A stretch of DNA of 64,000 bases from Microbacterium sp. Nx66 (GTDB taxonomy: Bacteria > Actinomycetota > Actinomycetes > Actinomycetales > Microbacteriaceae). The position numbers were made by a program, and so were the translations under genes. The notes beneath the pieces were generated by a model that made no database searches, had not been told where the DNA came from, and saw only the letters and a list, made by a program, of their open reading frames with translations. Below are positions 13,325 through 64,000 of the stretch, piece by piece. Position 1 is the first letter of the stretch; the number at the start of each line of letters is the position of its first letter. The stretch covers positions 434,001 through 498,000 of the forward strand of contig NZ_LR880474.1 in assembly GCF_904066215.1 (NCBI RefSeq), in the 5' to 3' direction.

Positions 13325-13363
13325 GCCGCCCCCTCTTCTTCCCCCTTTCACGAAGGACTTCTG

Positions 13364-14560: not shown

Positions 14561-14734
14561 CCCCCTCCTCCGCCCCCCACCCCGGAACGTTTTCGATCAC
14601 GGGAGGAGATTCCCACCCGTGAGAGCGCGAAAAGGGACCGGGAACGGGGGTGCGGGGTGCGGAAGTGATCCGGCACGGCGGGGAGACAGGAAAGAAGCGG
14701 GCGGCCGTTCTCAGGGAGTTCACACCGGAGCGAA

Positions 14735-14754
14735 TGTACAAACGTACATGTACG
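14735..14754 (+). promoter_or_regulatory. Overlapping palindromes, probable TetR operator
   Basis: TGTAC-AAAC-GTACA (14735-14748) and the perfect palindrome CGTACATGTACG (14743-14754) overlap, 20 bp before the TetR start. The spacing suits autorepression and joint control of the downstream efflux gene. The preceding 170 bp hold a weak hairpin (TCACGGG with CCCGTGA near 14597-14622) and nothing else recognisable. Confidence 0.65.
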
Positions 14755-14773
14755 GGTGTCCAGGGGGTGAGCG

Positions 14774-15361
14774 ATGGTGGAGAGCGCGCGTCGGCGGCGT
14801 GACCCCGAAGCGCGTCGTCGGGAGATCGTCACCGCGACGGCCGAGCTGATCGTCGAGGTCGGGGCCGACGCCATCACGCATCGGATGGTGGCCGCCAGAG
14901 CCGGAGTGCCGCTCGGGGCGACCACCCAGTACTTCGACACCCTCGACGACCTGCGCACCGCCGCCTTCCGAGCGCTCGCGGACGAGATCGAATGCCGACT
15001 CGACGGAGTGCGGCAGACCCTCGCCGAACGGGGAGCCGGGGCCGACGTCATCGCGGCGCTCGTGTACGACAGCATCCACGACGGCCACGCGGTGCAGGCG
15101 GATCGAGCCGTGGTCACGGCAGCCGTGCACGATCCGCGTCTGCGCCAGCTCGCGCGCCACCTGTCCGACCGCCTCGTCGACCTCCTGGAGCCGACCTATG
15201 GCGCCGACCGGGCCCGAGCGGCGATGATCTTCATCGACGGCGTCATGTGGAGCACGCAGATCCGCGACGTCGAACTCGAACAGTCCTTCCTCGAATCCGC
15301 ACTGGCGCGGATCCTCGGAGTACCCCTCTCCCTCCCATCCGCAGCGACCGCCACCCCCTGA
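14774..15361 (+). CDS. TetR family transcriptional regulator
   Basis: 195 residues from ATG 14774. Residues about 10-60 are the TetR helix-turn-helix (REIVTATAELIVEVGADAIT, then VAARAGVPLGATTQYF). The rest is an all-helical ligand domain. The gene is 16 bp upstream of the RND pump gene on the same strand and behind a palindromic operator, so it is probably a drug- or metabolite-responsive repressor of its own operon. Confidence 0.92.
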   Translation: MVESARRRRDPEARRREIVTATAELIVEVGADAITHRMVAARAGVPLGATTQYFDTLDDLRTAAFRALADEIECRLDGVRQTLAERGAGADVIAALVYDSIHDGHAVQADRAVVTAAVHDPRLRQLARHLSDRLVDLLEPTYGADRARAAMIFIDGVMWSTQIRDVELEQSFLESALARILGVPLSLPSAATATP

Positions 15362-48193: not shown

Positions 48194-49327
48194 GTGGCAA
48201 CGCGCATGGCCGCGACACCGCCGACGCTGGCGGGGTACAGCTACGTGCGTCCACTCGGGTCCGGCGGGTTCGCCGACGTGTTCCTCTACGAACAGGACAT
48301 GCCGCGCCGCGTCGTCGCCGTCAAGGTCCTGCTCGCGGATGCCGTGAACCCCGAGGTGCTGCAGACCTTCAACGTGGAAGCCGACATCTCGGCGCGACTG
48401 AGCGCCCACCCGTCGATCGTCACGATCTACCAGGCGTCCATCTCGGCGGACGGGCGGCCGTACTTCGCGATGGAGTACTGCCCCGACACGATGAGCGCGC
48501 GGTACAAGAAGGCCCCGCTCCCACTCGCCGAGGTGCTCGACATCGGCGTCCGCATGGCCGGCGCGCTGGAGACCGTGCACAGGGCCGGGCTGCTGCATCG
48601 CGACATCAAGCCGTCGAACGTGCTCATCAACTCCCTCGGCGCGCCAGTGCTGGCCGACTTCGGCATCGCGGCCGCCGTCATCGAGGAGGGCGAGGGCGAG
48701 ACCATCGCGATGTCGGTGCCCTGGAGCTCCCCCGAGGTCCTCCAGGAGCGCGTGTCCGGATCGATCCCCAGCGAGGTCTGGAGCCTCGGAGCGACGCTCT
48801 ACACGCTGCTCGCCGGCCGCAGTCCGTTCGAACGCGCCGACCGCGGCTCGAACTCGCGCGATCAGCTCACGGACCGCATCATCAAGGCGCGGTACACGGC
48901 CGTGCCCGTCCCCGGCATCCCGCCGATCATCGACGACCTCTTCGCGAGCGCCATGCATCGCGACCCGGCGAAGCGGCCGGCGAGCATGGCGGAGTTCGCG
49001 GAGAAGCTGCGCTGGGCGCAGTACGAGCTCGGCATCTCGCCGACGGCCTTCGAGGCGGCGTCGGCGGAGTGGGCGGCGGCTGCTCCGGTGAACTTCTCGG
49101 ACGCGACCGTCCGCGGTCCCGTCATCACCACGGTCGCGCCCGACTCCCGGAGGGCCGCGCGTGCGGCCCGTCCGCAGGTGGCACCCCGCGAGCGGGACGA
49201 CGTCCCGGCGAGCACGCGCGGCCGGACCCGGTCGCCCCTGGTCGTCGGCATCGTCGGCGCGGTGATCGGCGCGGCCGCCATCGCGGGGATCGGCACCGCG
49301 GCCCTGTTCCTCACGGGGATCCTCTGA
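48194..49327 (+). CDS. Transmembrane serine/threonine protein kinase
   Basis: 377 residues from GTG 48194, with AGGAG 5 nt upstream; ATG 48206 is a weaker option. The kinase domain is complete: Gly loop GSGGFADV (22-29), Lys44 (VAVKVL), HRDIKPSN with catalytic Asp137, DFG 155-157, and SVPWSSPEV at the end of the activation loop in place of the usual GTxxYMAPE. A polar juxtamembrane stretch follows with SDATVRGP (Thr305), then a single C-terminal membrane segment ending at the last residue. There is therefore no extracellular sensor. The stop overlaps the giant surface protein start (TGATG). It phosphorylates Ser/Thr of cytoplasmic targets; Bifidobacterium pkb2 is the likely counterpart. Confidence 0.93.
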   Translation: MATRMAATPPTLAGYSYVRPLGSGGFADVFLYEQDMPRRVVAVKVLLADAVNPEVLQTFNVEADISARLSAHPSIVTIYQASISADGRPYFAMEYCPDTMSARYKKAPLPLAEVLDIGVRMAGALETVHRAGLLHRDIKPSNVLINSLGAPVLADFGIAAAVIEEGEGETIAMSVPWSSPEVLQERVSGSIPSEVWSLGATLYTLLAGRSPFERADRGSNSRDQLTDRIIKARYTAVPVPGIPPIIDDLFASAMHRDPAKRPASMAEFAEKLRWAQYELGISPTAFEAASAEWAAAAPVNFSDATVRGPVITTVAPDSRRAARAARPQVAPRERDDVPASTRGRTRSPLVVGIVGAVIGAAAIAGIGTAALFLTGIL

Positions 49328-52300
49328 TGGCGGCAGGCAACCGCACCGGCGCCGATGCCACGACCCCACCCCGGGGCAGGCTGATCGCGCTGATCTCGGG
49401 GATCCTCGCGCTCGTGGTCGTCGTGGCACTCGCGGTGACGGCGCAGGGGTATCAGTCCCAGGAGGTGCCGCGCCTCGAGCCGGCCGTCTGGGTCATGCGC
49501 GACAGCGGACAGTACGCCCGCGTCAACACCGAGCTCGCCGAGATCGACACGGTCCGCGACGTCGACGACCCCGAGGCGGTGTGGCAGAGCGGCTCCAGTA
49601 CGGTGCTCTTCGCCCAGGGGAACCGGCAGCGGTGGGACGTCGATGCGGCCAGCCCCTCCGATCTGCTCGCCGACAGCTCGGAGGAGGGCACGCCGCTCGC
49701 CTCGCAGCCGACGCCCGCCGGGACGCGCGACGTGCTCTCCGCCGGGGTCTACGTGGCCTACCGGACCGACACCGGGCAGGTGTCCGTGTCGACCCTGGCC
49801 GCCGGGGCGGGGACAGCCCTCGTCGACCCGTTCGCGGAGGTCGAGGTCGAGGAGGGGGAGGACCCGCCGACCTACACCGCCGACGCGATCGGCCTCTCGC
49901 CGGACGGCCTGCTCGTCCTCTACTCCGCGGACGAGGGGGCTGTCCGCCGGTTCGACATCGACGAGCACCGCTTCCTCGGAGACGAGTCGCCGGTGGCCGA
50001 CGCGCCGGAGGCGGGCGAGGGTCTGGCGATCGCGGTCGTCGGCGAGCGCTGGGCGATGCTGCAGCCGGGGTCGGGGGAGCTGTGGCTCTCCGGACGCGAT
50101 GAGGTCGTCGCCCTGGACGTCGCCGAGGACGCACACCTGCAGCACGGGGCCGCCGAAGGCGATGCGGTGCTCGTCGCCGATTCCGACGGCCTCGTGTCCG
50201 TTGACCTCTCGTCCGGCGAGTCCGATCGCGTGGCGGAGGCGTCCGGCGTCCCCGCCGCACCGGTCTCCGTCCGCGGGGAGACCTACGCGGCCTGGCTCGA
50301 CAGCGGCGGCGGGACGCTCTGGAGCGCGGGGGAGACCACCCCGCTGCAGGTCCCTGACGAGACGCTCGACGCGGCCGCCATCGAGCCGGTCTTCCAGGGG
50401 AACGGCGACCGCGCGGTGCTCGTCGAGACCGGGACGGGGCTCATCTGGACCGCTCCGGACGGCGTGCTGATCCCGCTCGAGCAGTGGAAGATCGAGGACG
50501 ACACGGAGCAGCAGGAGGGCACCATCGTCGTCGAGGACGTGGCGGAGCAGCTGCCGCCGGTCGCGGTCGACGACGCGTTCGGCGTGCGCGCGGGGGAGCA
50601 GGTCATCCTGCCCGTCCTGCTGAACGATCACGATCCGAACAAGAAGGACGTCCTGACGATCGACCCCGAGTCGGTCTCGGCAGGACTCAGCGACCCTGCG
50701 TTCGGGGACCTCGCGCTCGTGGCGAACGGGCAGTCCCTGGTCGTCGATGTGAAGGCGGGCTCCGGCCAGGCGAGCTTCACCTACGCCGTGACGGACGGCG
50801 CGGCCGTCTCGCCGCCGGCGACCGTGACGCTGACGGTCGTCGATCCCGGCGTCAACTCGGCCCCGGTCTGGTGCGGCGTCGAGGCCTGCACGCAGGACTG
50901 GCCCGCGCCGCAGATCCTGGCCGGCGGCAGCACGATCGTCTCGGCGCTCTCCGGCTGGGTGGACCCCGAGGGCGATGCGTTCATCCTGAGCGACGCCTAC
51001 GAGACGGACTCCTCGGCGCCGGTGATGGTGGCGCCGACGGACGACGGCCGGGTCGCGATCCGGCACACCGATCCGAACGCCGCGGACGCCGTGATCCCGA
51101 TCACGGTCGTGGTGCAGGACGTGCACGGCGCGACCGCGGAGAAGACCCTCGAGGTCCAGGTCAGCGGCAGTCCCGCGCTCCAGGCATCGGCTGTCGCGGT
51201 GACCGCGCGCGTCGGCGAGCGGCAGTCCATCCGGATCTCCGATCACCTGTCCGGAGGCTCCGGGTCGTATCGCCTCCTGGACGCCGTCCAGACCGCCGCG
51301 ACCGCGCAGGGCTTCGAGGTCACCCCGAACGCGGCCGCGGGCACCGTGGAGCTGACCGCGGCGAAGCCGGGCCAGTACGTGGTGACCTACACCGTGCAGG
51401 ACGTCACGACCCAAGCCGAGCAGTCCGCCGTCATCCGCATCACGGCGGTCGACGGCTCCGCGGCGCTCGCCATGGCACCCCTGACCGCGTTCGTGCGCGA
51501 GGGTGAGGACACGACCGTCGATGTGCTCCGCGCCGTGCAGAACACCAGCGGACGCGTGCTGCTGCTGTCCGACGCCGTGAGCTCCACACCGCAGCTCAAC
51601 GTCCGCGTGGTCGGCAACGAGAGCCTGCGGGTGAACGGCACGACCGAGGACGGAGAGCCCGGTCTGATCGGCACGGCCACCGTCACGGTCGCGGATGGCG
51701 CGGGCGGGGCGGTGCAGGGCACGGTGAGCGTGTTCCTCACCCCGCCGTCCACCGTCACCCGCCCGATCGTCTTCCCGGACGCGGTGACGGTGCGCGCCGG
51801 TTCGCTCACGCGCATCGAGGTCGCCGCGAACGACGTCGCGCCACGCGGGGAGCCGCTCCTCGTGCTCCCGGAGGTGACGGGATCCGGCGAGCCGGACGAG
51901 CTCGTGTTCGCCGACCGCAACGCTCTGCGGTACCTGGCACCGAAGACGCCCGGCACCTACCGGCTGACGTATTCGGTCTCGCTCGAACGGAACCCGTCGC
52001 TGTCCGACGACGGCGTCGTGACGGTCACGGTCGTCCCGCCCGGAACCAACCGCGCTCCCACACCGATCATCCTCACCGGTCGCGTCCTCAGCGGCCAGAC
52101 GGTCACCGTCCCCGTGCCCACGACCGGGATGGACGGCGACGGGGACCGCGTGGTCCTCTCCGGCGTCGATCAGCCGAAGAAGGGCGGCGGCACGGCGACC
52201 ATCTCGGCGAACGGCGAGGCGATCGTGTACCGGGCGCCGGCCGGCGGAGTGGACGGCGGACAGGTGTCGTTCCGCTATACCGTGCGGGATCCGCAGGGCG

Positions 52301-55245
52301 AGGAGGGCAGCGGCGCTGTCCGCATCGGCGTCCTCGACGCGGATGTCGACGACGCCGCTCCGGTGACGTTCAGCGATTACGTCCGCGTCGAGGCAGGATC
52401 CCGCACACCGGTCGTGCTGGACCCGCGCTCGAACGACCTCGACCCTGCGCAGAGCGAGCTCGAGATCACCGCGCTCGTGCCGAACGCGCCCCCCGTCAAG
52501 GGCAATCCGCTGTACGAGCGGCTGAACGCGCTGATCGATTCGGACACCTCCCTGAAGGACGGCCGCGTCGTGCTGCGCGCCGGGGAGACGGCGGGGACGA
52601 ACTCGTACTTCTACACCGTGAGATCGACGCGGACCGGGAGCACGGCGCAGGGCCTCATCGTGTTGACCGTCACCGAGGGCACGGTCGCCGATCAGCCGGT
52701 CATCGCGGACACCGTGCTCACGGCGCGCGACCGTGACGATCTCGCGGACGGCGGTGTCGATGTCGTGACGGACCGGGTGCGGTGGCCGTCCGGCGACGTC
52801 TCGTCCCTGCGCCTGAGCCTGTGGGGTGAACAGTCCGGATACACGGTGCGGGGCAACCGGATCATCGGGGAGGCGCCGAAGGAGGGCGCGCTGGTCCCCT
52901 TCCAGCTCACCGGCACCGCCGCGGGCGGACGGGACGTGGCCGCCTACGGCTTCCTGCGGATCCCGGCGTTCGACGATATGCAGGTCCAGCTCGTCCCCGG
53001 CGCGACACCGGTCGTCGTCGACGAGGACGCGTCCGTGTCGTTCGCGGTGCAGGACTACCTCGATCTGCCGTCGTCGGATGCCGTGGAGATCGGCTCCGGC
53101 GCCTTCACCGCTCAGCGGGCCGCAGCGTCGTGCGCGGCCGACGGTCCGCGCAAGGCGGAGTACCGCGCCGGTCGTGAGGCGCCATGGTCGGACACCTGCC
53201 TGATCCCGGTGCGCCTGGAAGGTCAGAAGCGCTGGTCCTTCGTCGACGTGCCGGTCAGCATCCGTCCCTCGGAGCCCCAGCTGCTGCTCTCCTCGATCTC
53301 GCACACGATCGCCCCAGGGGCCACCGAGAGCGTCGACCTCTACGCCAACATGGCCGCCTGGGAAGGCGGACGCGAGGGCAACGCGGGCTCCCTCGAGTAC
53401 CGGATCGTGTACTCGGGGTCGGCGTTCGTCGTCACGCAGAGCGGGGCGAAGCTGACGATCGAGGCGCGCGCCGATGCACGACCCGGCAACACCGAGAACG
53501 TCAGCGTGACGGTGCCGCAGTATGGTCAGCCGTCGGCCTCCGTGCGCCTGGTCGTCGGCGCGGCCCCGCCCGACGCTCCACGGGGGGCCACCTTCACGAA
53601 GCAGTGCGTCGTCACCAGCGCCAACTGCTCGATCGACGTCGTCGACGTGGCCGGCGAGTACGACCCCTTCGACGGCAAGCCGGGCTCCGGCTTGCGGCTC
53701 ATGTCGCTCGGGGCAGGCGCGCGCTGCGACGTCGCCTCCATCTCGACGACCGGCACCAAGACGATCACGGCGAGCTGGCCCCGCGGCGGCCAGGCTCCGG
53801 GAGGACAGTGCGTGATCCCGTTCGTCGTGGCCGACGCCCAGGGGCGGACCGGCACGGGAACCCTCACGCTCGACCTGCAGGGCTTCCCGCAGGCGCCGGC
53901 GAGCGTGACCACCGTGGGCTTCACCCGCTCGACCGTCGTGCTGGAGGTGCCGCTCGGGGAGGCGCGGCGCGCCCACCCCGGGGTGTCCGGCGTGACCATC
54001 CTTCAGGACGGGGCCGCAGCCAACGCCTCCTGCAGTCCGGCCGGTGCCGTGTACCGCTGCACGGTCAGCGGTCTGACCAACGGCGCCCCGCACACCTTCA
54101 CGGCGGCCGCGGTCAACGCCGTCGGCACCTCGGCGTCCACCTCGCCGCACACGAGCTGGGCCTACGCGGCTCCGGTCGTCGCGAACGCGACGGCCACGCC
54201 GGAGTATCGACCGGGTGTCTCGGACCGCGGGCGCGGGGCGGTCAGGGTCTCGATCGACGCCGCCGACGACGCCGTCTCGTTCCGGATCGAGGAGACGGGC
54301 GAGGTCATCAACCGCACGGGGGCGACCACCACCGCCGACATCGCGCTGTCGCCGGGAGCGCAGACCCTCACGATCGTCCCGATCAGCCAGTTCCAGCCGC
54401 CGACCGGCGGCGGGAACGAGGGTGGTGGCTTCCGCACGTCCGTGACGGTCGCCGGCTCCGTGTACTTCGACCCGGCGGCGACACAGGCGACCGCGGTCTC
54501 CAACACGGCGGTGAACGTCTCCGGCATCGCCGCGCAGGCCAACGGCAGCGCCAAGGGCGTCCAGGTCACCTACGTGGCGTGGCGGTCGGGCAACGTCAGC
54601 TGCACCGCGAACGGGGACGGCTCGCTGTCGGTCTCCGGCGGAGAGGTGCGCTCCGAGTCCCCCTCTCTGCAGGGGTTGCGGCCGTACCAGCTGTACTACG
54701 TCAAGGCGTGCGCGTCGAACGGCTACGGTGTGGCGGAGTCGTCCCCCACGAGCGTCTTCACGTTCACGTTCGTCGACGGCCCCGGTGGCGACACCACCTA
54801 CACGGTCGCGAAGGACCCGCGGCGCGACGGGAACCGCTACGACTACGGCCTGGCCTCGGCGCCGCGCATCGACGTGGAGAACGGCTTCGTGCCGCAGTAC
54901 TACCTCTACGGGCAGTGGGTCGGCGACTTCGCGCTCACCCCGGATTCGTCCCCGGGTCAGGTCCGCGCACGCGCCTGCCATGCCACGCAGACCGGCTCCT
55001 GCTCCGGAGAGGTGAACATCACCGCGACGACCGCACCGACCGTCGTCAACGCCGTGTTCCAGCCCTGCATGCCCGTCGTCGAGGGTGATGTCGTGACGGT
55101 GTCCGGCGCGGCACGCGGCTCGTACATCCTCGAGGTGACGCCCCTGGTCGACACCCCCGGCACCTTCGACGTGAAGCTCACGTGGACCGGCGCCTACGAA
55201 ACCCTGACCCCCATCACGCATCGCGTCACGGGCCTGTGCCCCTGA
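49327..55245 (+). CDS. Giant membrane-anchored surface protein with Ig-like and FN3 domains
   Basis: 1972 residues from ATG 49327, coupled to the kinase. A short cytoplasmic N-terminus, one membrane segment (about 18-42), then about 360 residues of beta-rich repeats that resemble a propeller (YVAYRTDTGQVSVS, WLDSGGGTLWSAGE). From about 410 to 1515 come some ten Ig/cadherin-like domains starting PVAVDDAFGVRAGEQ or similar, and from about 1520 to 1815 FN3-type domains. No sorting signal at the C-terminus, so it is an N-anchored type II protein. Because the kinase lacks an outer domain, this protein may sense or bind outside. Compare fn3 of the Bifidobacterium PFNA cluster. The ligand is unknown. 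Confidence 0.88.
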   Translation: MAAGNRTGADATTPPRGRLIALISGILALVVVVALAVTAQGYQSQEVPRLEPAVWVMRDSGQYARVNTELAEIDTVRDVDDPEAVWQSGSSTVLFAQGNRQRWDVDAASPSDLLADSSEEGTPLASQPTPAGTRDVLSAGVYVAYRTDTGQVSVSTLAAGAGTALVDPFAEVEVEEGEDPPTYTADAIGLSPDGLLVLYSADEGAVRRFDIDEHRFLGDESPVADAPEAGEGLAIAVVGERWAMLQPGSGELWLSGRDEVVALDVAEDAHLQHGAAEGDAVLVADSDGLVSVDLSSGESDRVAEASGVPAAPVSVRGETYAAWLDSGGGTLWSAGETTPLQVPDETLDAAAIEPVFQGNGDRAVLVETGTGLIWTAPDGVLIPLEQWKIEDDTEQQEGTIVVEDVAEQLPPVAVDDAFGVRAGEQVILPVLLNDHDPNKKDVLTIDPESVSAGLSDPAFGDLALVANGQSLVVDVKAGSGQASFTYAVTDGAAVSPPATVTLTVVDPGVNSAPVWCGVEACTQDWPAPQILAGGSTIVSALSGWVDPEGDAFILSDAYETDSSAPVMVAPTDDGRVAIRHTDPNAADAVIPITVVVQDVHGATAEKTLEVQVSGSPALQASAVAVTARVGERQSIRISDHLSGGSGSYRLLDAVQTAATAQGFEVTPNAAAGTVELTAAKPGQYVVTYTVQDVTTQAEQSAVIRITAVDGSAALAMAPLTAFVREGEDTTVDVLRAVQNTSGRVLLLSDAVSSTPQLNVRVVGNESLRVNGTTEDGEPGLIGTATVTVADGAGGAVQGTVSVFLTPPSTVTRPIVFPDAVTVRAGSLTRIEVAANDVAPRGEPLLVLPEVTGSGEPDELVFADRNALRYLAPKTPGTYRLTYSVSLERNPSLSDDGVVTVTVVPPGTNRAPTPIILTGRVLSGQTVTVPVPTTGMDGDGDRVVLSGVDQPKKGGGTATISANGEAIVYRAPAGGVDGGQVSFRYTVRDPQGEEGSGAVRIGVLDADVDDAAPVTFSDYVRVEAGSRTPVVLDPRSNDLDPAQSELEITALVPNAPPVKGNPLYERLNALIDSDTSLKDGRVVLRAGETAGTNSYFYTVRSTRTGSTAQGLIVLTVTEGTVADQPVIADTVLTARDRDDLADGGVDVVTDRVRWPSGDVSSLRLSLWGEQSGYTVRGNRIIGEAPKEGALVPFQLTGTAAGGRDVAAYGFLRIPAFDDMQVQLVPGATPVVVDEDASVSFAVQDYLDLPSSDAVEIGSGAFTAQRAAASCAADGPRKAEYRAGREAPWSDTCLIPVRLEGQKRWSFVDVPVSIRPSEPQLLLSSISHTIAPGATESVDLYANMAAWEGGREGNAGSLEYRIVYSGSAFVVTQSGAKLTIEARADARPGNTENVSVTVPQYGQPSASVRLVVGAAPPDAPRGATFTKQCVVTSANCSIDVVDVAGEYDPFDGKPGSGLRLMSLGAGARCDVASISTTGTKTITASWPRGGQAPGGQCVIPFVVADAQGRTGTGTLTLDLQGFPQAPASVTTVGFTRSTVVLEVPLGEARRAHPGVSGVTILQDGAAANASCSPAGAVYRCTVSGLTNGAPHTFTAAAVNAVGTSASTSPHTSWAYAAPVVANATATPEYRPGVSDRGRGAVRVSIDAADDAVSFRIEETGEVINRTGATTTADIALSPGAQTLTIVPISQFQPPTGGGNEGGGFRTSVTVAGSVYFDPAATQATAVSNTAVNVSGIAAQANGSAKGVQVTYVAWRSGNVSCTANGDGSLSVSGGEVRSESPSLQGLRPYQLYYVKACASNGYGVAESSPTSVFTFTFVDGPGGDTTYTVAKDPRRDGNRYDYGLASAPRIDVENGFVPQYYLYGQWVGDFALTPDSSPGQVRARACHATQTGSCSGEVNITATTAPTVVNAVFQPCMPVVEGDVVTVSGAARGSYILEVTPLVDTPGTFDVKLTWTGAYETLTPITHRVTGLCP

Positions 55246-55267
55246 TCGCCGAGCACACCGACACGAA

Positions 55268-55273
55268 TACTCT
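55268..55273 (+). promoter_or_regulatory. Internal leaderless promoter before the MoxR gene
   Basis: TACTCT ends 6 nt before the MoxR ATG at 55280, and no ribosome site lies between. This would allow the MoxR to phosphatase part to be transcribed separately from the kinase and surface protein. Confidence 0.55.
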
Positions 55274-55279
55274 TTCCCT

Positions 55280-56269
55280 ATGCCAGCCACCGCAGCCGCC
55301 CCCGTCACCCTCGCCCCCGAACAGGCCTCCTGGTTCGCCGAGACGTTCTCGATCCTGACCGGCAACGTCGAGCAGGCGATCCTCGGCAAGCGCCACGTGG
55401 TCGAGCTCGTGCTCGCGACCGCCGTCAGCGGCGGCCACGTCCTCCTGGAGGACTATCCGGGGACGGGTAAGACGGCGCTCGCCCGCGCCGTCGCCCAGAC
55501 GGTCAACGGCACCAGCAGCCGCATCCAGTTCACGCCCGACCTCCTCCCGGGTGATGTGACCGGCATCACGGTGTACGACCAGAAGGAGGGCACGTTCGAG
55601 TTCCACGCGGGGCCCGTCTTCGCGAACATCGTGCTCGCCGACGAGATCAACCGGGCGAGTCCGAAGACCCAGTCCGCGCTGCTGGAGGTCATGGAGGAGG
55701 GCACGGTCACGGTCGACGGCGTCACCCGTGCGGTCGGCTCCCCGTTCCTCGTGATGGCGACGCAGAACCCCATCGAGCAGGGCGGCACCTACCGGCTCCC
55801 CGAGGCGCAGCTCGACCGCTTCATGATCAAGACCTCCATCGGATACCCGGACGAGGCGGCGACCATGCGCATCCTGCAGGGCGCCGGTCGCCCGAAGACG
55901 GTGCTCGACGGCATCGTGGACACCGACACGATCCTCACGATGGCGGAGATGTCGCGCGGCGTGTACGTGAACCCGCTGGTGTCGGATTACATCATGCGCA
56001 TCGTCGATGCCACGCGCCGGGCGTCCGAGGTCCGTCTCGGTGCCAGTGTGCGCGGCGCCCTCGCGCTGTCCCGCCTGGTGATGACGTGGGCGGCCAAGAA
56101 CGGACGCACGTTCGTCACCCCCGACGACGTGCGCGAACTCGCCGTCGTCGCCCTCGCGCACCGCCTGGTCCTCGAGCCGGAGGCCGAGTTCGACGGGGTG
56201 ACGGCCGTGGCCGTCGTCGGGCAGATCCTCCTCGACGTCGAACCCCCGCGCGAGAACGGCACTGCGTGA
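55280..56269 (+). CDS. MoxR family AAA+ ATPase
   Basis: 329 residues from ATG 55280. AAA+ motifs: Walker A EDYPGTGKTALARAV (near 58-72), Walker B VLADEINRASPKTQSALLEVMEEG (near 118), sensor 1 MATQNPIEQGGTYRLPEAQLDRF, and the C-terminal lid. MoxR ATPases act with DUF58/VWA proteins to remodel or activate protein complexes. The gap to the giant gene is 34 bp; its stop overlaps the DUF58 start by 4 bp (GTGA). Confidence 0.94.
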   Translation: MPATAAAPVTLAPEQASWFAETFSILTGNVEQAILGKRHVVELVLATAVSGGHVLLEDYPGTGKTALARAVAQTVNGTSSRIQFTPDLLPGDVTGITVYDQKEGTFEFHAGPVFANIVLADEINRASPKTQSALLEVMEEGTVTVDGVTRAVGSPFLVMATQNPIEQGGTYRLPEAQLDRFMIKTSIGYPDEAATMRILQGAGRPKTVLDGIVDTDTILTMAEMSRGVYVNPLVSDYIMRIVDATRRASEVRLGASVRGALALSRLVMTWAAKNGRTFVTPDDVRELAVVALAHRLVLEPEAEFDGVTAVAVVGQILLDVEPPRENGTA

Positions 56270-57636
56270 CCTTCAGCACCGAATCCCGCCTGACGCGGAC
56301 GACCGCGGGCACGAGCACGTCGACGCGGACGTCCACCGTCACGCGTTACGACCGCACGCGCCGCGGTCCCGTGCGCGGCGCGGTCTTCGGCGCGCGTCGC
56401 GTCGCCCGCTCCGTGGGCCGCGCGACCAGGGCCACCGTCGGCTGGGTCCGCGAGACGGTGACCACGGCGGGCATGCTCGTGGCCGTCGCGGTGGTGCTCG
56501 GTGTGCTCGCCGGGCTGCTGTTCGGCTGGGTGGAGGCCTGGGCGGTGGCCACGATCGCGCTCGTGCTGCTGGTGGCCTGCGTCCCGTTCATCCTCGGTGC
56601 CCATGACTACCGGATCGATCTCGTGCTCGATCGCGACCGCGTCGTCGCGGGCGCCGAGATCGGCGCGACCCTGGACGTCCGCAACAACGGCGAGCGCCTC
56701 TCGCTCCCCGGTGTCGTGGACGTGCCGGTGGGCGAGGGCCTCGTCGAGGCGCACGTCCCGCTGCTGCGGCCGGAGGCGCATCATCGGGAAGAGCTGACCA
56801 TCGCCGCGCACCGCCGCGGCGTCATCGACGTGGGCCCCATGACCATCACCCGCGGCGACCCGATCGGCATCCTCCGCCGCGAGCTCCGGTGGCCGGACGT
56901 CCAGCGCATCCACGTGCACCCGGTGACCGTGCGGCTCCCCAGCACCAGTGCGGGACTGATCCGCGACCTCGAGGGCACGCCGAGCACCACTCTGGTGGAC
57001 GCCGACCTCTCCTTCCACGCGGTGCGCGAGTACGTCGTCGGCGACTCGCCGCGCCACATCCACTGGAAGTCCACGGCGAAGACGGGCACCCTCATGGTGC
57101 GGCAGTACGAGGAGTCCCGGCACGCGCGCATCGCCGTCATCCTGGATCTCGACCCGGAGTCGTACGCCGACGACGACGAGTTCGAGAACACCGTCAGCGC
57201 GGCCGCCTCGCTGGCGCTGCAGGGTGTGCGGGACGGCAGGGACGTGCTGTTCTCGGTGAGCAACGAGATCCCGGAGCACGGCCGCGCCGAGGTGCTGTCG
57301 ATCCGTACGCTGCCCACGGTCACCCCCAAGGCTCTCCTCGACGCGACCTCCACGATCGATCAGACGGCGCGGGTGATGAGGCTCGAGGCCGTCACCGCTC
57401 TCACGGCGCAGTCGTACCCCGACCTCTCGATCGGGTTCCTGCTCACCGGGTCCGTCCTGCCGATCGAGCGTCTGCGTCACGCGGCGGTGAAGCTCCCGGC
57501 AGCCGTGGAGGCCGTCGCGGTGCGCAGTGAGCTCGGCGCGCAGCCGACGATGCGGACGGCCAGGGAGCTCGCGGTGATGACCCTCGGTGCGCTGGGCGAC
57601 CTCCCCCAGATGCTCGCCCGCGGAGCGCTGCGGTGA
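56266..57636 (+). CDS. DUF58 domain membrane protein
   Basis: 456 residues from GTG 56266. A Thr/Arg-rich N-terminus of about 65 residues, two membrane segments (about 66-110: MLVAVAVVLGVLAGLLFGWV and a following ATIALVLLVACVPFIL), then a beta-rich part and the DUF58 block REYVVGDSPRHIHWKSTAKT, near residue 260, followed by a von Willebrand A-like fold. DUF58 proteins are partners of MoxR ATPases. The C-terminal part faces the cytoplasm. It overlaps the next gene by 4 bp (GTGA at 57633). Confidence 0.92.
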   Translation: MTFSTESRLTRTTAGTSTSTRTSTVTRYDRTRRGPVRGAVFGARRVARSVGRATRATVGWVRETVTTAGMLVAVAVVLGVLAGLLFGWVEAWAVATIALVLLVACVPFILGAHDYRIDLVLDRDRVVAGAEIGATLDVRNNGERLSLPGVVDVPVGEGLVEAHVPLLRPEAHHREELTIAAHRRGVIDVGPMTITRGDPIGILRRELRWPDVQRIHVHPVTVRLPSTSAGLIRDLEGTPSTTLVDADLSFHAVREYVVGDSPRHIHWKSTAKTGTLMVRQYEESRHARIAVILDLDPESYADDDEFENTVSAAASLALQGVRDGRDVLFSVSNEIPEHGRAEVLSIRTLPTVTPKALLDATSTIDQTARVMRLEAVTALTAQSYPDLSIGFLLTGSVLPIERLRHAAVKLPAAVEAVAVRSELGAQPTMRTARELAVMTLGALGDLPQMLARGALR

Positions 57637-60182
57637 GCGCCGGCGGGCCGAAGCGCGGACGCGCGCGATCCGGACGGGGGTTCGTGCCGTCGGCGCTCCT
57701 GCTCTGGTCTCTGGGATACGTGCTGGCCGGTGTGCTCCTCGCCACGGCGGCCGCCTGGCCCGTCTACGAGTCGTCCCGAGCCCTCGCCGTCGGGATCATC
57801 GGCGGCCTCCTCGGCATCGCCGTCGCCGTCGTCGCGCGCGTCCTCCGCTGGGGAACGCTGCTCGCCGCGGTCGCCGCGGCCGGCGTGTACCTGCTCGTCG
57901 CGGTGCCCCTCGCGATCCCCTCCGCCCTGACCTCCGTGCCCGCGTTCCTCGGCGGTGTGCGGGATGCGGTGCTCGGGGTCGTGCTGGGCTGGAAGCAGAT
58001 GCTCACGCTGAATCCGCCGCTGGGGGAGTACCAGGCAGTCCTCATCCCCTTCCTCGTGGTGATGCTGTTCGGCTCATTCGTCGCCACGCTGCTCGTCTGG
58101 GGCGGGGGCAAGCGGGCGGCGGCGGCCGTCCCGGTGGTGGTGGCGATGAGCGTCTTCGGCATCGCCTTCGGTGTGAGCGGGACGTCCTCTCCCGTGACGG
58201 TGGCGGGAATCGAGCTCCCCGCGCCGCGCGAATGGCTGGTCGGGGTGGCGGTCTTCGTGGTGTCGCTGGTCTGGCTCGTCGGGCGCACGCGCCTGCAGCG
58301 CGCCGCCGCGCTGCGCAGCGTGGCGGCGGCGAACATCTCCCGTCGCGCGACCCCCGCCTGGCTCACCGTGCGCCGCCACCTCCTCTCGGCGGGGCTGGCC
58401 GTGGTCGCCCTGGCCGCGGGCTTCGCGATCGCCCCCGCCGCGGCCGGCTGGTCCGACCGCTCCGTGCTCCGCGACGAGATCGAACCCATGGTCGTGGTGC
58501 AGGAACAGCCGAGTCCGCTCAGCTCCTACCGGTCCTGGTTCTCCGGCGACACGCTGGACACGCCCGTGGCGCAGCTGGAGGGCGACCCCGGCGCCGTGGA
58601 CCGCCTCCGCCTGGTGACCCTCGACGCGTACGACGGCGAGGACTTCCACATCGACGCCGACGACCGCTTCAGTCGTCTGCCGCGCTCCGCCCTCCCGGGC
58701 TCCGGCCGGGTGACGCTGGAGGTGACGATCGGCGACGCCTACCGCGGGATCTGGGTGCCGGCACCCGCCGGACTCGCGGAGGCGCCCGGATTCTCCGGGG
58801 AGCGTGCCGATGCGCTCGCCGACGGCTTCCATGTGAACGCCGACGGCGACACCGCGATCACCGTCGCCGATGCGCCCGGTGGCGGGGAGGGCCTCGTGCC
58901 CGGTGACCGCTACTCCGTGCTGATCGATGCGCCGGAGAAGCCCGGCGACATCACGGCCCTCCAGGGCGGCCGGTCGACCCTCGACGCCGATCGATACCCC
59001 GCGCTCGTCGAGTGGGCGGAGATGCAGGAGCAGCCGCGCACCGGCGCCGGCTACCTCGAGCTGATCGATCGCCTCCGGTCGCGGGGCTACCTGAGCCACG
59101 CGCTGCTCGAGGACGCCTCCGCTGCGGGGTGGATCGCGGCGCTCCAGGCGTCTGAGGGATACGCGTTCGCGCCCAGCTACGCCGGACACTCGGCCGCGCG
59201 CATCGAGGAGCTGTTCACCGAGCTGACGGAGCAGGAGCGGCGGGCCGGTCCCGACGCCGACCCCGAGCTGCTCGTGTCGGCGGTCGGTGACGACGAGCAG
59301 TTCTCCGTGGCCGCGGCGCTCCTCGCGCAGCACTGGGGTCTCGAATCCCGTGTGGTGCTGGGCGCACGACTCGCGACGGCGGAGGAGGTCCCGGGGATCC
59401 CGGCCTGCACCGAGGTCTGCACCGGCGCGAACATGAGCGCCTGGGTCGAGGTGCGTGCGTCGGGCGACGAGTGGATCCCGGTCGATGCGACGCCGCAGTA
59501 CGCGATGCTGCCGAGCGCCATCACCGAGGGAGAGCAGCTGCCGGAGCACCCGACCGTTCCGGAGCAGCCGCGGTCCGAGGCACTGGACCCGCCGCAGGCG
59601 CAGAGCGACGCGAACAACGACGCGCCCCCGCTGGAGGAGCCGGGCTCGGAGGTCCTCGCCTTCCTGCTGCCGATCCTCAAGGGCGTCGGACTGGGGCTGC
59701 TCGCCCTGCTCCTGCTGGCCCTGCCGTTGCTCGTGCTCCTCGTCGCGAAGAGCCGACGTGCACACGCGCGCCGCACGGCCCCGGACCCCGAAGTCCGGCT
59801 CGCCGGCGCCTGGGAGGAGCTCGCCGACGTGTACGCCGACCACGACGTCCCCATGGTCGCGCACGGCACCCGGACGCAGCGCGCACAGTCGAGCGGTCGT
59901 GCGGCCGCGCAGCGGCTGGCCGCTCTCGTGGACCGCGCCGTCTTCGCCGAGCACCCGCCGACTCCCGACGACGCGACGGCCGCGTGGACGATCGTGGATG
60001 CGGAGCGGACGGAACTGGCGAAGGCGGGGACGCGGTGCCAGCGCCTGCGCACACGTGTGCGGCCGACGTCTTTCGTCGCGAGGGCGCGCTCTCTGCGCCT
60101 CCCCGGCTTCGGCGCGCGACCCACGCTCGGTACGCTCGGAGGGACCGGTTCACTGGATGACCGGAAGAAGGGGGACTCATGA
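57633..60182 (+). CDS. Transglutaminase-like (TgpA-type) membrane protein with altered active site
   Basis: 849 residues from GTG 57633. Multiple N-terminal membrane segments (about 20-270), an outer region (about 280-670), one membrane segment (about 680-705) and a cytoplasmic tail. This is the DUF3488/TgpA plan. In the transglutaminase core the usual GxCxxF reads GDDEQF (Asp554 in place of Cys) and the HAW site reads SAW (Ser602 in place of His); only Asp618 in IPVDATP remains. The domain is therefore probably non-catalytic, unless nearby Cys in PACTEVCTG act. It lies between the DUF58 and FHA genes, each with a 4-bp overlap. Counterpart of tgm in the PFNA cluster. Confidence 0.88.
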   Translation: MSAGGPKRGRARSGRGFVPSALLLWSLGYVLAGVLLATAAAWPVYESSRALAVGIIGGLLGIAVAVVARVLRWGTLLAAVAAAGVYLLVAVPLAIPSALTSVPAFLGGVRDAVLGVVLGWKQMLTLNPPLGEYQAVLIPFLVVMLFGSFVATLLVWGGGKRAAAAVPVVVAMSVFGIAFGVSGTSSPVTVAGIELPAPREWLVGVAVFVVSLVWLVGRTRLQRAAALRSVAAANISRRATPAWLTVRRHLLSAGLAVVALAAGFAIAPAAAGWSDRSVLRDEIEPMVVVQEQPSPLSSYRSWFSGDTLDTPVAQLEGDPGAVDRLRLVTLDAYDGEDFHIDADDRFSRLPRSALPGSGRVTLEVTIGDAYRGIWVPAPAGLAEAPGFSGERADALADGFHVNADGDTAITVADAPGGGEGLVPGDRYSVLIDAPEKPGDITALQGGRSTLDADRYPALVEWAEMQEQPRTGAGYLELIDRLRSRGYLSHALLEDASAAGWIAALQASEGYAFAPSYAGHSAARIEELFTELTEQERRAGPDADPELLVSAVGDDEQFSVAAALLAQHWGLESRVVLGARLATAEEVPGIPACTEVCTGANMSAWVEVRASGDEWIPVDATPQYAMLPSAITEGEQLPEHPTVPEQPRSEALDPPQAQSDANNDAPPLEEPGSEVLAFLLPILKGVGLGLLALLLLALPLLVLLVAKSRRAHARRTAPDPEVRLAGAWEELADVYADHDVPMVAHGTRTQRAQSSGRAAAQRLAALVDRAVFAEHPPTPDDATAAWTIVDAERTELAKAGTRCQRLRTRVRPTSFVARARSLRLPGFGARPTLGTLGGTGSLDDRKKGDS

Positions 60183-61780
60183 CCGCGCCCGCGGACTCCG
60201 GTCCGGCCACGATGCTCGCCATCATCGTCGGACTCGGCCTGCTCGTCGGCCTGGCCGTCTACGTCTGGTACGCCCTCGCCCTGTCGCGGCTGTTCCCCCG
60301 CATCGACGGGGAAGGGTGGAAGGGGTGGGTGCCCGTCCTCAACGAGGCCGAGATCCTCGCCCGCGGCGGAGTGCCGGCCTGGTCGGTGGTCTTCTACTTC
60401 ATCCCGCTCGTGCAGCTCTACGGGATCTATCTCAAGGTCGTCGCCACGCATCGCATCAACCGGCGGTTCGGGCGGGGCGCGGGGATGACGGTCCTCGCCA
60501 TCCTCCTGCCGCCCGTGTGGGCGACCATCCTCGCGTGGGGCCCGGCGCCCTATCCGGAGGGGGACCGACTCGCGGCGCTCCAGCCGGGTCCGCGCCGTAG
60601 TGCTCCGCCTTCCGCGGCTCCCGCGCGCGACGCTTCGGGGTACACGATCCCCTCCCTCGCTCCGGCGGGGAACGGATCGCCGGAGGCGCCGTCGCTGATC
60701 TTCCCGGACTACGCCGCGCCGCCCGCGGTCGCTCCGACCCCACCCCCGGGTGCCCCGCCGACCGCGGGTGCGCCGCAGGGCGAGCCCGCGGCACCGAGGT
60801 CGTTCGCGCCGCCGGTGTTCGCTCCGCCTGCCGCGCCGCCGGCTCCGTCGTCCTCGACGCCGTCTCCGTCGTTCGCACCACCGGCGCCGCCCGCGCCGTC
60901 GCCCGCGGCTGCTCCCGTTCCGCCGGCTGCGCCCGTTCCGCCGACTGCCTCGATTCCGCCTGCTGCCCCGGTTCCGCCGGCGGCGCCCGTGCTTCCGCCC
61001 GCGGTGGCTCCGACACCACCCTCCCCGGCCGCACAGCCGACGCCCTCCGCTCCCGCGCAGCCGACGACCGGCATCATGGCCGCGATGGGCGACGTACCGC
61101 CGGCCGCCCCGCAGCCCGCGCCGGCCCCTGCTCCCTCCGTGGACTCGCCGCCGAGCGAGGAGCCCGCTGCCCCCGCGCCGGCTCCGGAGGCGAACCGTGT
61201 CGTCCGACCCGTGCCGCCCTCGTTCCGCGACGGCGGTCAGCCCGAGGCCCCGCAGATGCCCACGATCCGCCCTGTTCCGTCGATGACGGCTGCGGCACCC
61301 GCGGCGGAGCAGAGCGCGCCGGCGCCTGCCCCCGCGACAGAGGCGCTCGCGGTCCCGGGCGGTCTGGTCCCCGACGTCGACAAGACCGTGGTGACACCGC
61401 GCCCGACCGACGACGACCTCGATGCCACGGTGGTGGTCGCCCGCAAGCGCGGCGTGCGGCGGGTCCTCGTGCTGGACGACGGTCGCCGGTTCTCGCTGTC
61501 CGGTGCGAGCGTCGTGATCGGCCGGAACCCCACAGGCGAGCCGGGCGAGCAGCGGCTGGCCATCCCGGACACCACGCGCACGCTGTCGAAGACCCACGCC
61601 CGCCTGGTGGTGCAGGAGGACGAGTGGCGACTGACCGACCTGCACGCCACCAACGGCGTCGTGGTGGTCGCGGACGACGGCTCGGAGACCCTCCTGGACG
61701 CCGGGGAGAGCGTGGTCGGCACCGGCCGGTTCATCCTGGGCGAAGTGGGCATGCACGTCGTCGCGGAGCGCGATTCGTGA
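60179..61780 (+). CDS. DUF5684-FHA fusion membrane protein
   Basis: 533 residues from ATG 60179. Residues 1-115 are a four-segment membrane region of DUF5684 type (FPRIDGEGWKGWVPVLNEAE, WSVVFYFIPLVQLYGIYLK). Residues about 130-395 are Pro/Ala-rich and disordered. An FHA domain covers about 430-530, with VIGRNP, TLSKTHARL and DLHATNG as the phosphothreonine-binding loop residues. Just before it lie DKTVVTP (Thr403) and DDLDATVVVA (Thr417), possible phosphosites that could bind the same FHA domain, as in GarA-type switches. It overlaps both neighbours by 4 bp. Confidence 0.9.
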   Translation: MTAPADSGPATMLAIIVGLGLLVGLAVYVWYALALSRLFPRIDGEGWKGWVPVLNEAEILARGGVPAWSVVFYFIPLVQLYGIYLKVVATHRINRRFGRGAGMTVLAILLPPVWATILAWGPAPYPEGDRLAALQPGPRRSAPPSAAPARDASGYTIPSLAPAGNGSPEAPSLIFPDYAAPPAVAPTPPPGAPPTAGAPQGEPAAPRSFAPPVFAPPAAPPAPSSSTPSPSFAPPAPPAPSPAAAPVPPAAPVPPTASIPPAAPVPPAAPVLPPAVAPTPPSPAAQPTPSAPAQPTTGIMAAMGDVPPAAPQPAPAPAPSVDSPPSEEPAAPAPAPEANRVVRPVPPSFRDGGQPEAPQMPTIRPVPSMTAAAPAAEQSAPAPAPATEALAVPGGLVPDVDKTVVTPRPTDDDLDATVVVARKRGVRRVLVLDDGRRFSLSGASVVIGRNPTGEPGEQRLAIPDTTRTLSKTHARLVVQEDEWRLTDLHATNGVVVVADDGSETLLDAGESVVGTGRFILGEVGMHVVAERDS

Positions 61781-62604
61781 CCGTGGAATCCGTCGTCCTC
61801 CGGGTCGCCGCGCTGACCGACACCGGGCTCACGCGGACGGCCAACGAGGATGCGGTGCTCGACGCACGCCCGGTCTTCCTGGTCGCCGACGGCATGGGCG
61901 GTCACGACGCCGGTGACCGCGCCAGTGCGGCCGTCGTCGCCGCCTTCGAGCCGTTGCGGGGGCGAGCGGTCGACGTCGGCGACATCAGCGACGCTCTGAG
62001 CCGTGCCACGGCCGTGGTCGAGGCGATCGCCGCCGCGCACAAGCGCGGCGCAGGCAGCACCGTGACGGGTGTGGCCCTCGTGGAGCACGAGCGCGCGCCG
62101 CACTGGCTCGTCTTCAACGTCGGGGACTCCCGGGTCTACCGGCACCACGGCACCGAGCTGGCGCAGCTCACGATCGACCACTCCCTCGGGCAGGAGCTCG
62201 TCGATGCCGGAGAGCTCCGCCCCGAGGACCTCGCCTCGTTCTCGCGCCGCAACGTCATCACGCGGGCGGTCGGCGCTCCGGACAGCACCGCGGACAGCTG
62301 GCTCCTCCCCGTCGTCGACGGTGAGCGGCTCCTGCTGTGCTCCGACGGGCTCACCGGCGAGGTCAGCGACGAAGCCATCCGTGCGACGCTGACCATGAAC
62401 GGCCGTCCGGAGACAGCGGCGGCGGCTCTGGTGCGCCGCGCGCTGCAGGGCGGCGGACGCGACAACGTCTCGGTCCTCGTGATCGACGTCATCTCCGGCG
62501 GCGCGCGGCCCCGTCCCGACGACGCGGCGGGCGGACGGGCCGCGGTGTCCGCGCTCACCGACTCGATGCTCGACGGCACGACGGTCCCGGTGCGAGCGCG
62601 ATGA
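61777..62604 (+). CDS. PP2C family Ser/Thr protein phosphatase
   Basis: 275 residues from GTG 61777. Metal-binding motifs are complete: TRTANEDAV (Asp25), VADGMGGHDAGDRAS (Asp38, Gly39), VFNVGDSRVYR, CSDGLTGEV and GGRDNVSVLV. The enzyme is cytoplasmic and has no membrane segment; a 25-residue tail ends GTTVPVRAR. It removes phosphate placed by the kinase at 48194, and is the counterpart of prpC in the PFNA cluster. It overlaps the FHA gene and the next gene by 4 bp each. Confidence 0.94.
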   Translation: MTVESVVLRVAALTDTGLTRTANEDAVLDARPVFLVADGMGGHDAGDRASAAVVAAFEPLRGRAVDVGDISDALSRATAVVEAIAAAHKRGAGSTVTGVALVEHERAPHWLVFNVGDSRVYRHHGTELAQLTIDHSLGQELVDAGELRPEDLASFSRRNVITRAVGAPDSTADSWLLPVVDGERLLLCSDGLTGEVSDEAIRATLTMNGRPETAAAALVRRALQGGGRDNVSVLVIDVISGGARPRPDDAAGGRAAVSALTDSMLDGTTVPVRAR

Positions 62605-63275
62605 GCGACGATGAGGTCGAGGAGACCGTCATCCTGACGCGGCGGGATCGCCGGCGGGCCGAAGCGGCCGTCGACCCGGTGCCCCCGGCGGCCGATGACA
62701 CCTCGTCCGCCGTCGACGAGGCGACCATCGTGGTGGATCGCGCGAAGACGGCTCCGGCTCCCGACCGGACCGACGATGCCGCAGTGGACGCGCCCGAAGG
62801 CACCGTCGCCGATGAGCCGGACGATGCCCGGCCCGAGGACGCCGCGGGCGAGGCCATCGACGACGCGACCGTGGTCGTCGATCGGTCCGCACCTCCGGCG
62901 GCCGACGCCCCCGAGGACGCCACCGTGGCGGTCGCGCGCCCGGCTCGACGCCTGCGGCGGAAGAAGGGTGCCGCCGCAGCAGGCGACGGCATCGCACCGA
63001 AGACCGCGGGGCCGCGGTTCACGGTCGATTCCTTCGCCGCCCCGGACGGCGCACCGGCCCCCGCGATCTACAAGCCCCGACCGGCACCCCGCACCCCCGT
63101 CGCCCCGCCCGTCGTCGTCGGGGCGGCCGCACCCACGCGGGTGGTGGAGCCCGGGCTGCCCTCCGTCGCCAAGCAGGCGCAGCGGTGGAGCGTCTTCACC
63201 CTCGCTGCGACCGTCGGCGCGAGCGTCGTGTCGGTGGCCGGTCTCGTGGTGCTGGGCTTCGTCGTCTTCGGCTGA
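62601..63275 (+). CDS. Membrane protein with repeated acidic-Ala-Thr-Val motifs
   Basis: 224 residues from ATG 62601, overlapping the phosphatase gene by 4 bp. No family recognised. Residues 1-180 are acidic, Ala/Pro-rich and disordered; one membrane segment closes the chain (VFTLAATVGASVVSVAGLVV). Short motifs recur: EETVILT (Thr9), DEATIVVDR (Thr42), DDATVVVDR (Thr90) and EDATVAVAR (Thr108), with a looser EGTVAD at Thr68. An acidic residue before and V/I three after the Thr suits kinase acceptance and FHA binding. Likely substrate or scaffold of the operon's kinase and FHA protein (inference). Confidence 0.85.
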   Translation: MSDDEVEETVILTRRDRRRAEAAVDPVPPAADDTSSAVDEATIVVDRAKTAPAPDRTDDAAVDAPEGTVADEPDDARPEDAAGEAIDDATVVVDRSAPPAADAPEDATVAVARPARRLRRKKGAAAAGDGIAPKTAGPRFTVDSFAAPDGAPAPAIYKPRPAPRTPVAPPVVVGAAAPTRVVEPGLPSVAKQAQRWSVFTLAATVGASVVSVAGLVVLGFVVFG

Positions 63276-63810: not shown

Positions 63811-64000
63811 TCAGACCTCGGGCTCGGGGCGGTCGAGGAGGCCGCCCTGTCGTTCGACGTCGGCCGCCGCGTCGGGCGGGGACTCCCGGCGTCGCCGGAG
63901 CACGATGAGGATGCCGAGGACCCCGAGCAGGGTCGCTCCGGCGATCGCGGCGATCAGCGCCACCTCGCGGGTGAGGATGAAGGGCGGCACGCCGTGGTCG
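63811..64000 (-). CDS. Membrane protein, C-terminal fragment
   Basis: The stop (TCA on the plus strand, 63811-63813) closes a frame that stays open to the window edge (62 codons). It shows an outside segment (HGVPPFILTREV), one membrane segment (ALIAAIAGATLLGVLGILIVL), a stop-transfer RRRR and a short acidic tail. This is the end of a type I-like membrane protein; the family cannot be told. It is convergent with the gene at 63334. Confidence 0.65.
   Translation of the reverse strand, partial: DHGVPPFILTREVALIAAIAGATLLGVLGILIVLRRRRESPPDAAADVERQGGLLDRPEPEV

Follow-up and report, generated by a model that had tools for sequence, protein, structure and literature searches.

The eight-gene locus

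The window analysed here is a 64,000-nucleotide stretch of the Microbacterium sp. Nx66 genome (contig NZ_LR880474.1, positions 434,001 to 498,000, forward strand), and its subject is a run of eight consecutive genes encoding a Hanks-type Ser/Thr kinase, a giant envelope protein, a MoxR ATPase, a DUF58 protein, a transglutaminase-like membrane protein (Tgm), a DUF5684-FHA protein, a PP2C phosphatase and a tail-anchored protein that carries an array of acidic threonine motifs. All eight frames are stop-free, run in the same direction and have a third-position GC content of 0.87–0.94. Six junctions overlap by 1, 4, 4, 4, 4 and 4 bp, with a 34-bp gap only between the giant and MoxR genes, which matches exactly the arrangement given in the original prediction; the gene families named there agree with Pfam for seven proteins, the eighth, the array protein, having no match in Pfam or NCBIfam. 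The kinase and PP2C motifs of the window proteins are intact as judged by eye, and a scan for promoters and terminators found none. Three features had not been foreseen: the array repeats a motif of the FHA protein, the transglutaminase domain is dead in all aligned loci, and the end of the window holds the start of a type VII secretion locus.

Threonine motifs shared by the array and the FHA protein

To define array proteins without regard to the motif, we took 36 loci with Tgm, FHA and PP2C genes and no kinase seen downstream, and chose the frame directly after PP2C that has a C-terminal membrane helix. A candidate was found in 30 of them; the other six are L045, whose PP2C frame has the motifs and a membrane helix, L049, L053, L057, L063 and L083 (kinase probably past the fetched stretch). 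The 30 proteins contain 112 copies of [DE]xT[VI], compared to 8.8 in per-protein shuffles (approximately 13-fold), and 26 have at least one, while the serine form [DE]xS[VI] occurs 7 times, compared to 7.9 in the shuffles. Judged by these counts, the array sites use threonine, not serine. Four motifs are clear in the window array; relatives within Microbacterium have about three to seven, the number differing between close relatives. On the DNA level, the pattern for [DE]xT[VIM][VIM][VIM]xR has 5 matches in the 3.46-Mb genome, 3 of which are in the operon (two array sites and one FHA-linker site), and the reversed pattern, used as a control in the same genome, has 2. The array consensus resembles the phosphosite of GarA and OdhI. 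The array would be a natural, countable and multivalent phospho-scaffold, so that the effect of site number is testable.

A protein search with the array protein returned 102 matches at E ≤ 0.001 among 8000 scored candidates, and all those with names shown are hypothetical or uncharacterized. The seventh gene of the Bifidobacterium-like cluster was considered as a homologue and rejected, as no array is present in the loci read (L122 and L125). In this gene (14540–15340 in L122 and 14550–15152 in L125, cluster orientation), the N- and C-terminal units resemble each other and a threonine array is absent. In L045, of family f10, repeated DDATVV motifs and a membrane helix occur within the PP2C frame, as though phosphatase and array formed one protein.

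The six phosphothreonine-binding residues of the FHA domain (G, R, S, H, N and G) are invariant in 30 of 30 FHA proteins, in keeping with the predicted role of this protein as a phosphothreonine reader. A threonine stands at, or within two residues of, the pre-FHA motif column in all 30, with an acidic residue within three residues of it in 29, the exception being L020. Every one of these proteins thus combines, in the manner of GarA and OdhI, a binding-competent FHA domain with a threonine motif before it. Across all cluster types, FHA linkers contain 78 copies of [DE]xT[VIRLM], compared to 13.5 expected (64 of 98 segments), and PP2C tails contain 35, compared to 12.4 expected (32 of 74), with 3 serine forms in each set against 10.7 and 7.3 expected, respectively. 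Kinase tails show a weaker excess (108 compared to 50.9; serine form 42 compared to 45.4).

The motifs of the array and the FHA linker also match each other locus by locus. In 11 representatives with less than 60 per cent FHA identity, the motif likeness was 12.4 within loci and 7.7 across loci, a difference reached in 0 of 20000 permutations; five further sets of 12 loci gave 0, 33, 0, 85 and 1 of 20000. The [DE]xT sites of the giant, Tgm, DUF58 and MoxR proteins in the same loci show no within-locus excess. The match is not expected from independent drift after an old duplication and is expected from shared recognition, either by the FHA domain or by one kinase. The FHA protein seems to be a GarA-like switch whose target site has been multiplied into a second protein. 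A search of its FHA profile against PDB returned OdhI and GarA among 21 matches, neither being the best. The likeness to GarA and OdhI lies in the position of the threonine motif, directly N-terminal of a phosphothreonine-competent FHA domain; the window protein differs in being anchored to the membrane and in having its motif multiplied in a separate protein as well.

Where sensing could sit

The original prediction placed the sensing of an outside event in the giant protein. A profile of 54 sequences covering giant residues 1–440 matched the PknD sensor 1rwi (E 1.1e-4) and, best of all, Pizza propellers (4.6e-7), which derive from PknD. Kinases encoded upstream of the giant have only 0–9 residues beyond the transmembrane helix in 37 of 37 cases from the Mb, f1g1, f10 and f1g3 loci, as well as in 3 of 10 from f1g2 and 1 of 5 from f9. 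The remaining upstream kinases have 91–142 residues beyond the helix (one has 45), and downstream kinases have 103–131 where the stretch is long enough. For kinases without an outside part, any outside sensing part must therefore reside on another protein. The propeller match and the lack of an outside kinase domain make the giant a plausible sensor.

The transglutaminase domain

Of 130 loci with a Tgm match, 126 were aligned, frames shorter than 550 amino acids being left out, with an intact transglutaminase-like homologue from the same genome (L138) as the reference. The catalytic cysteine is kept in none of the 126 proteins and the histidine in 21, and all 16 members of family f4 have serine at the cysteine position. 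In the window protein, cysteine is replaced by aspartate and histidine by serine, as expected for the pseudo-transglutaminase that had been predicted, and the Cys-His-Asp triad of an active transglutaminase was not found. By its aligned residues, the domain is catalytically dead in every locus compared, whereas the Tgm product has been described as presumably a cysteine protease (PMC8430577).

Spread of the cluster and its kinship with PFNA

Eighteen named loci, 13 of them from Microbacterium, were found via the Tgm protein. Since gene order is the same in all 18 as far as the contigs extend, the eight-gene set is not a product of chance. L005, L012 and L015 have additional DNA between Tgm and the FHA gene; in L019 and L020, tblastn missed the array gene, and a frame at its place was found by position. 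A profile of the first 900 residues of the giant, applied with a cut-off of E ≤ 1e-10, matched in 158 of 297 genomes sampled from the order and in 7 of 296 sampled from the phylum, five of them inside the order and two, both weak, outside it. Gene order was then mapped in 135 loci, comprising 116 genome stretches, the 18 named loci and the window. The run giant-MoxR-DUF58-Tgm is present in most of them; MoxR is absent from some (e.g. L059, L065 and L073), and in L052, L070 and L106 the giant is alone in the stretch. The kinase lies upstream in some loci, as in the window, and downstream in others, where it often follows FHA, PP2C and a second FHA gene. This neighbourhood check bears out the prediction that the genes stay together, with linkage extending across an order. 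Among the parts proposed to be specific to this lineage, the DUF5684 portion is indeed restricted, being limited to 39 of the 135 loci. The giant gene is tandemly doubled, in the same direction, in L067, L072, L074, L086, L095 and L100 (families f6 and f1).

In the window, pkb2, fn3, aaa-atp, duf58 and tgm follow each other in the same order and direction as in the PFNA cluster of Bifidobacterium (pkb2-fn3-aaa-duf58-tgm-prpC-hyp-fha), and the two clusters share PP2C and FHA genes in addition to these five. The window cluster differs in that FHA precedes PP2C, the FHA protein has a DUF5684 membrane part, an array takes the place of the unrelated seventh gene, the kinase has no outside domain, the host is not a bifidobacterium and the flank is ESX-type. 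In family f4, whose genomes are small and which is very likely the Bifidobacteriaceae, L122 and L125 have the order kinase-giant-MoxR-DUF58-Tgm-PP2C-protein-FHA, and L134 has the giant fused to MoxR, a fusion already published for bifidobacteria (PMC8430577). PFNA has been called unique to bifidobacteria (PMC8430577) and 'found only in bifidobacteria' (PMC10688814). This printed restriction does not hold, because the giant occurs in the 158 genomes of the order and in the named Microbacterium loci; the kinship with PFNA is unaffected. The mycobacterial moxR operon is said in a review to resemble PFNA (PMC12067865), and the MoxR-DUF58-transglutaminase triple is known from other bacteria (PMC6803598).

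Type VII secretion genes beside the cluster

The type VII locus begins approximately 0.5 kb past the eighth gene, at contig position 497,811, and occupies the last 190 bases of the window, which ends at 498,000. It is convergent to the cluster and encodes a mycosin-like S8 protease, EccB, EccD, WXG100 proteins, two further S8 proteases and a second EccD-like protein and, further on, an FHA protein whose RDD match is sub-threshold and an ATPase resembling FtsK/EccC (FtsK_SpoIIIE 5.4e-81). EccB (TIGR03919, 170 bits, cut-off 154) and EccD (TIGR03920, 130 bits, cut-off 95) identify the locus as ESX-type; three WXG100 proteins also exceed their cut-off, and the mycosin model scores 243 bits, under its cut-off of 279. 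S8 protease and EccB genes follow the array gene, at distances of up to about 4.5 kb, in 10 of the 15 named loci with sequence past PP2C. EccD is also present in nine of these ten, the contig of the tenth ending first. Of the other five, four have a second giant-protein gene at this place and one has nothing; three more named loci end too early to reveal the neighbourhood.

A second kind of secretion gene was followed with an ATPase of genome G205 that is encoded approximately 2 kb past the FHA gene and combines FtsK_SpoIIIE (7.4e-62) with FHA (3.1e-12), its best NCBIfam match being EssC, below the cut-off. We defined the close FHA-FtsK class as matches of at least 798 bits in the 297 genomes, excluding weaker FtsK matches; this limit and the 30-kb limit used below were set after viewing the list. 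Of 85 close matches, 66 are in genomes with a place for the giant and 51 on the giant's contig, and in 42 of these 51 the gene lies within 30 kb of the giant, always on the same strand (all counts among the giant places listed). The 42 include the query genome itself, and 11 are from family f12; overall they span families f1, f3, f6, f8, f9, f10, f12, f13 and f18. The giant is found in 70 of 85 genomes with a close FHA-FtsK gene and in 88 of 212 without one (p 1e-10, ancestry ignored). EccB is present in 56 of the 297 genomes, and 101 of the 158 genomes with the giant have either EccB or a close FHA-FtsK gene. The type VII linkage is recurrent, not universal.

In two Bifidobacteriaceae-like genomes, the cluster stands at some distance from a secretion locus. 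In G082, of family f4, open frames reveal a T7SSd-like locus that has a kinase and a large protein of its own and is approximately 13 kb away from the cluster; G124 has an ESX-type block approximately 19 kb away. A stretch near the cluster marked by dapA-, dapB- and RNase J-like genes (L173–L175) holds either the T7SSd-like locus (G082) or the ESX-type block (G124). The cluster's giant was considered as the TsdI of G082 and rejected, a separate large protein being present in the T7SSd-like locus. In the Microbacterium loci L005 and L015, a cassette at 12747–15242, between Tgm and the FHA gene, encodes a 403-amino-acid protein and a membrane-like protein. The former matches WXG100 marginally in one locus (E 0.0094) and not at all in the other, and the cassette is possibly an exported protein with its partner.

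Table 1. Coordinates of the eight genes, their motifs and the adjoining frames in the window.
Feature	Position	Strand	Evidence and remarks
Hanks-type Ser/Thr kinase, pkb2-like	48194..49327	+	Pfam Pkinase 1.9e-41; HRDIKPSN and DFG by eye; single transmembrane helix at the extreme C-terminus, no outside domain
Giant envelope protein, 1972 amino acids	49327..55245	+	Pfam Big_9 1.7e-28, fn3 7e-6; N-terminal transmembrane helix (by eye), propeller-like region, Big_9 Ig domains, FN3
MoxR AAA+ ATPase	55280..56269	+	Pfam AAA_3 1.5e-61, AAA_lid_2
DUF58 protein	56266..57636	+	Pfam DUF58 8.2e-11
Tgm, membrane protein; transglutaminase domain dead (C to D, H to S)	57633..60182	+	Transglut_core 1.1e-8
DUF5684-FHA protein: DUF5684 membrane domain, long Pro/Ala-rich linker, FHA domain	60179..61780	+	Pfam DUF5684 8.2e-12, FHA 7.5e-6
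Acidic-Thr motif DATVVVAR, directly N-terminal of the FHA domain	61421..61443	+	Genome-wide DNA pattern match
PP2C phosphatase, Stp1/IreP-like	61777..62604	+	Pfam PP2C_2 5.8e-9; NCBIfam Stp1 5e-51, under the model's cut-off
Tail-anchored repeat (array) protein: acidic-Thr motifs (four clear), then C-terminal transmembrane helix	62601..63275	+	No Pfam or NCBIfam family
Array motif EATIVVDR	62718..62740	+	DNA pattern match
Array motif DATVVVDR	62862..62884	+	DNA pattern match
Open reading frame past the array gene	ends 63795		
Mycosin-like S8 protease, 3' end; first gene of the convergent type VII secretion locus running beyond the window	63811..64000	-	Profile matches

Discussion

We tentatively favour, at slightly less than an even chance, the interpretation that the eight genes encode a membrane-bound phosphothreonine switch together with an envelope part, and that this switch most probably acts on the adjacent type VII secretion machine. 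A signal would probably enter through the giant envelope protein, with its propeller-like region outside, because the kinase has no outside domain. The kinase would then phosphorylate threonine in acidic-x-Thr-hydrophobic sites, of which the tail-anchored array has several, the FHA linker one or two and the PP2C tail probably one. The FHA protein could bind its own linker site, as GarA does, and the phosphorylated array, by presenting many matching sites, may gather FHA proteins at the membrane until PP2C removes the phosphate marks. MoxR, DUF58 and the dead transglutaminase would build or remodel the envelope part, and the output may be the assembly or gating of the secretion machine, similar to the action of kinase, phosphatase and FHA protein in type VI secretion. 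With somewhat less confidence, we can imagine PFNA as an ancient type VII control module of the Actinomycetales, in one branch of which a kinase lacking an outside domain and a tail-anchored phosphothreonine ladder, co-evolving with its FHA reader, drive membrane assembly by phosphorylation.

Several observations weigh against the switch with a type VII client. Four of the 30 array proteins have no [DE]xT[VI] and carry variants instead, e.g. EDRTRVVDR, and 24 of 98 FHA linkers have no [DE]xT, although the segment rule had cut some motifs off. Nine of the 51 FHA-FtsK and giant pairs on one contig are far apart, EccB is within 30 kb of the giant on only 5 of 12 shared contigs among the giant places listed (G133 being one of the far pairs), and genome-wide EccB and the giant co-occur at chance level (33 of 56, Fisher p 0.37). 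Neither marker is present in 57 of the 158 genomes with the giant. The Nx66 genome has no member of the close FHA-FtsK class (best match 1.1e-59), its neighbour is ESX-type, and the TsdC characteristic of T7SSd was not found. Moreover, the cluster is not the T7SSd core in G082, because the T7SSd-like locus there has its own kinase and giant. The genomes are related and shared ancestry is left in all counts, which do not represent independent events. Finally, gene linkage, the use of threonine and not serine, motif matching, intact FHA binding residues, the dead Tgm and the linkage to secretion genes are what the sequences provide; that the threonines are phosphorylated and bound, that a signal is sensed and that secretion is controlled are steps that we infer and that await bench work.

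In a different explanation, which we consider unlikely but worth weighing, the cluster serves general envelope-stress signalling with MoxR-DUF58 remodelling, and nothing but history has placed the secretion genes next to it. The giant genomes without either secretion marker and the lack of an association with EccB are consistent with it, and MoxR-DUF58 pairs (PMC12067865) and MoxR-DUF58-transglutaminase triples (PMC6803598) have been described elsewhere. History alone sits less well with the 42 of 42 nearby FHA-FtsK genes on the same strand in nine families, with the ESX-type genes that flank another subset and G124, and with the T7SSd-like locus in G082. PFNA as published offers a further account, communication with the host, in which host cytokines bind to the giant and the signal is passed on by the kinase. 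The same order of the five core genes and the reported binding of TNF-alpha by an FN3 fragment and phosphorylation of MoxR by Pkb2 speak for it, but the cluster is order-wide, including Microbacterium, which excludes host sensing as the common function except as a late use; as an explanation of the present locus we find it very improbable.

Two other alternatives concern the repeats. The array could serve the kinase as a phosphate sink or amplifier and not be read by the FHA protein, since the motif suits a kinase substrate site equally well and the kinase and PP2C tails have Thr-specific versions of it. The array and FHA-linker motifs change together, which argues for reading by the FHA protein, although one shared kinase could also explain it; on balance we regard the sink as improbable. 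Functionless slippage of low-complexity acidic DNA would fit the variable repeat number among close relatives. We rejected chance or slippage as the origin of the array and strongly disfavour this account, given that the threonine form is far above chance and the serine form at chance, and that the strict motif is nearly confined to the operon.

The preferred interpretation, a phosphothreonine switch acting on type VII secretion, has parallels in known systems. T7SSd, present in Actinomycetota including Bifidobacterium, combines a kinase and a large Ig-like protein with a single-helix protein and an ATPase that bears FHA and has conserved phosphothreonine sites, and Garrett, Higginson and Palmer (2024) suggested its control by phosphorylation (PMC11217815). 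In linked relatives of the window cluster, a kinase, a giant Ig-like protein, an FHA-bearing EssC-like ATPase and WXG100 proteins are likewise close together, as described for T7SSd and T7SSe, and the single-transmembrane protein with an unstructured inner part recalls TsdH and TseK. The neighbour in Nx66 differs from T7SSd in being ESX-type with EccB and EccD, as does the cluster of G082 in lying beside a T7SSd-like locus with its own kinase and giant. In the main text of PMC11217815, which mentions kinase-FHA activation of type VI secretion, the words MoxR, transglutaminase and fibronectin do not occur. By analogy, the cluster may resemble the threonine-phosphorylation pathway of type VI secretion, in which a membrane kinase, a PP2C phosphatase and an FHA protein are located beside a secretion machine; the machine here is type VII, not VI. 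The components of that pathway are PpkA, PppA and Fha1, and we know of no counterpart in it of the array, the giant or the MoxR-DUF58-Tgm parts.

In the open-licence literature, which provides no proof of absence, we found no work joining PFNA with type VII secretion, no link, by title and abstract, among WXG100, MoxR, DUF58 and type VII secretion (taken at least three together), and nothing that brings together at least four of type VII secretion, FHA, PP2C, Microbacteri- and ESX-4. If correct, the proposed switch would give a concrete job to the studied but unexplained PFNA cluster and would correct two printed statements, that PFNA is unique to bifidobacteria and that Tgm is presumably a working cysteine enzyme. 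It would also supply FHA-bearing type VII systems with a candidate phosphothreonine ligand; that phosphorylation controls these systems has so far only been suggested (PMC11217815).

Elsewhere in the Nx66 genome, the FHA protein L141 ends in DDDATRVFGALG, and the kinase L147 has GDDDATRMLT before its membrane helix; a related threonine motif may serve this other kinase system.

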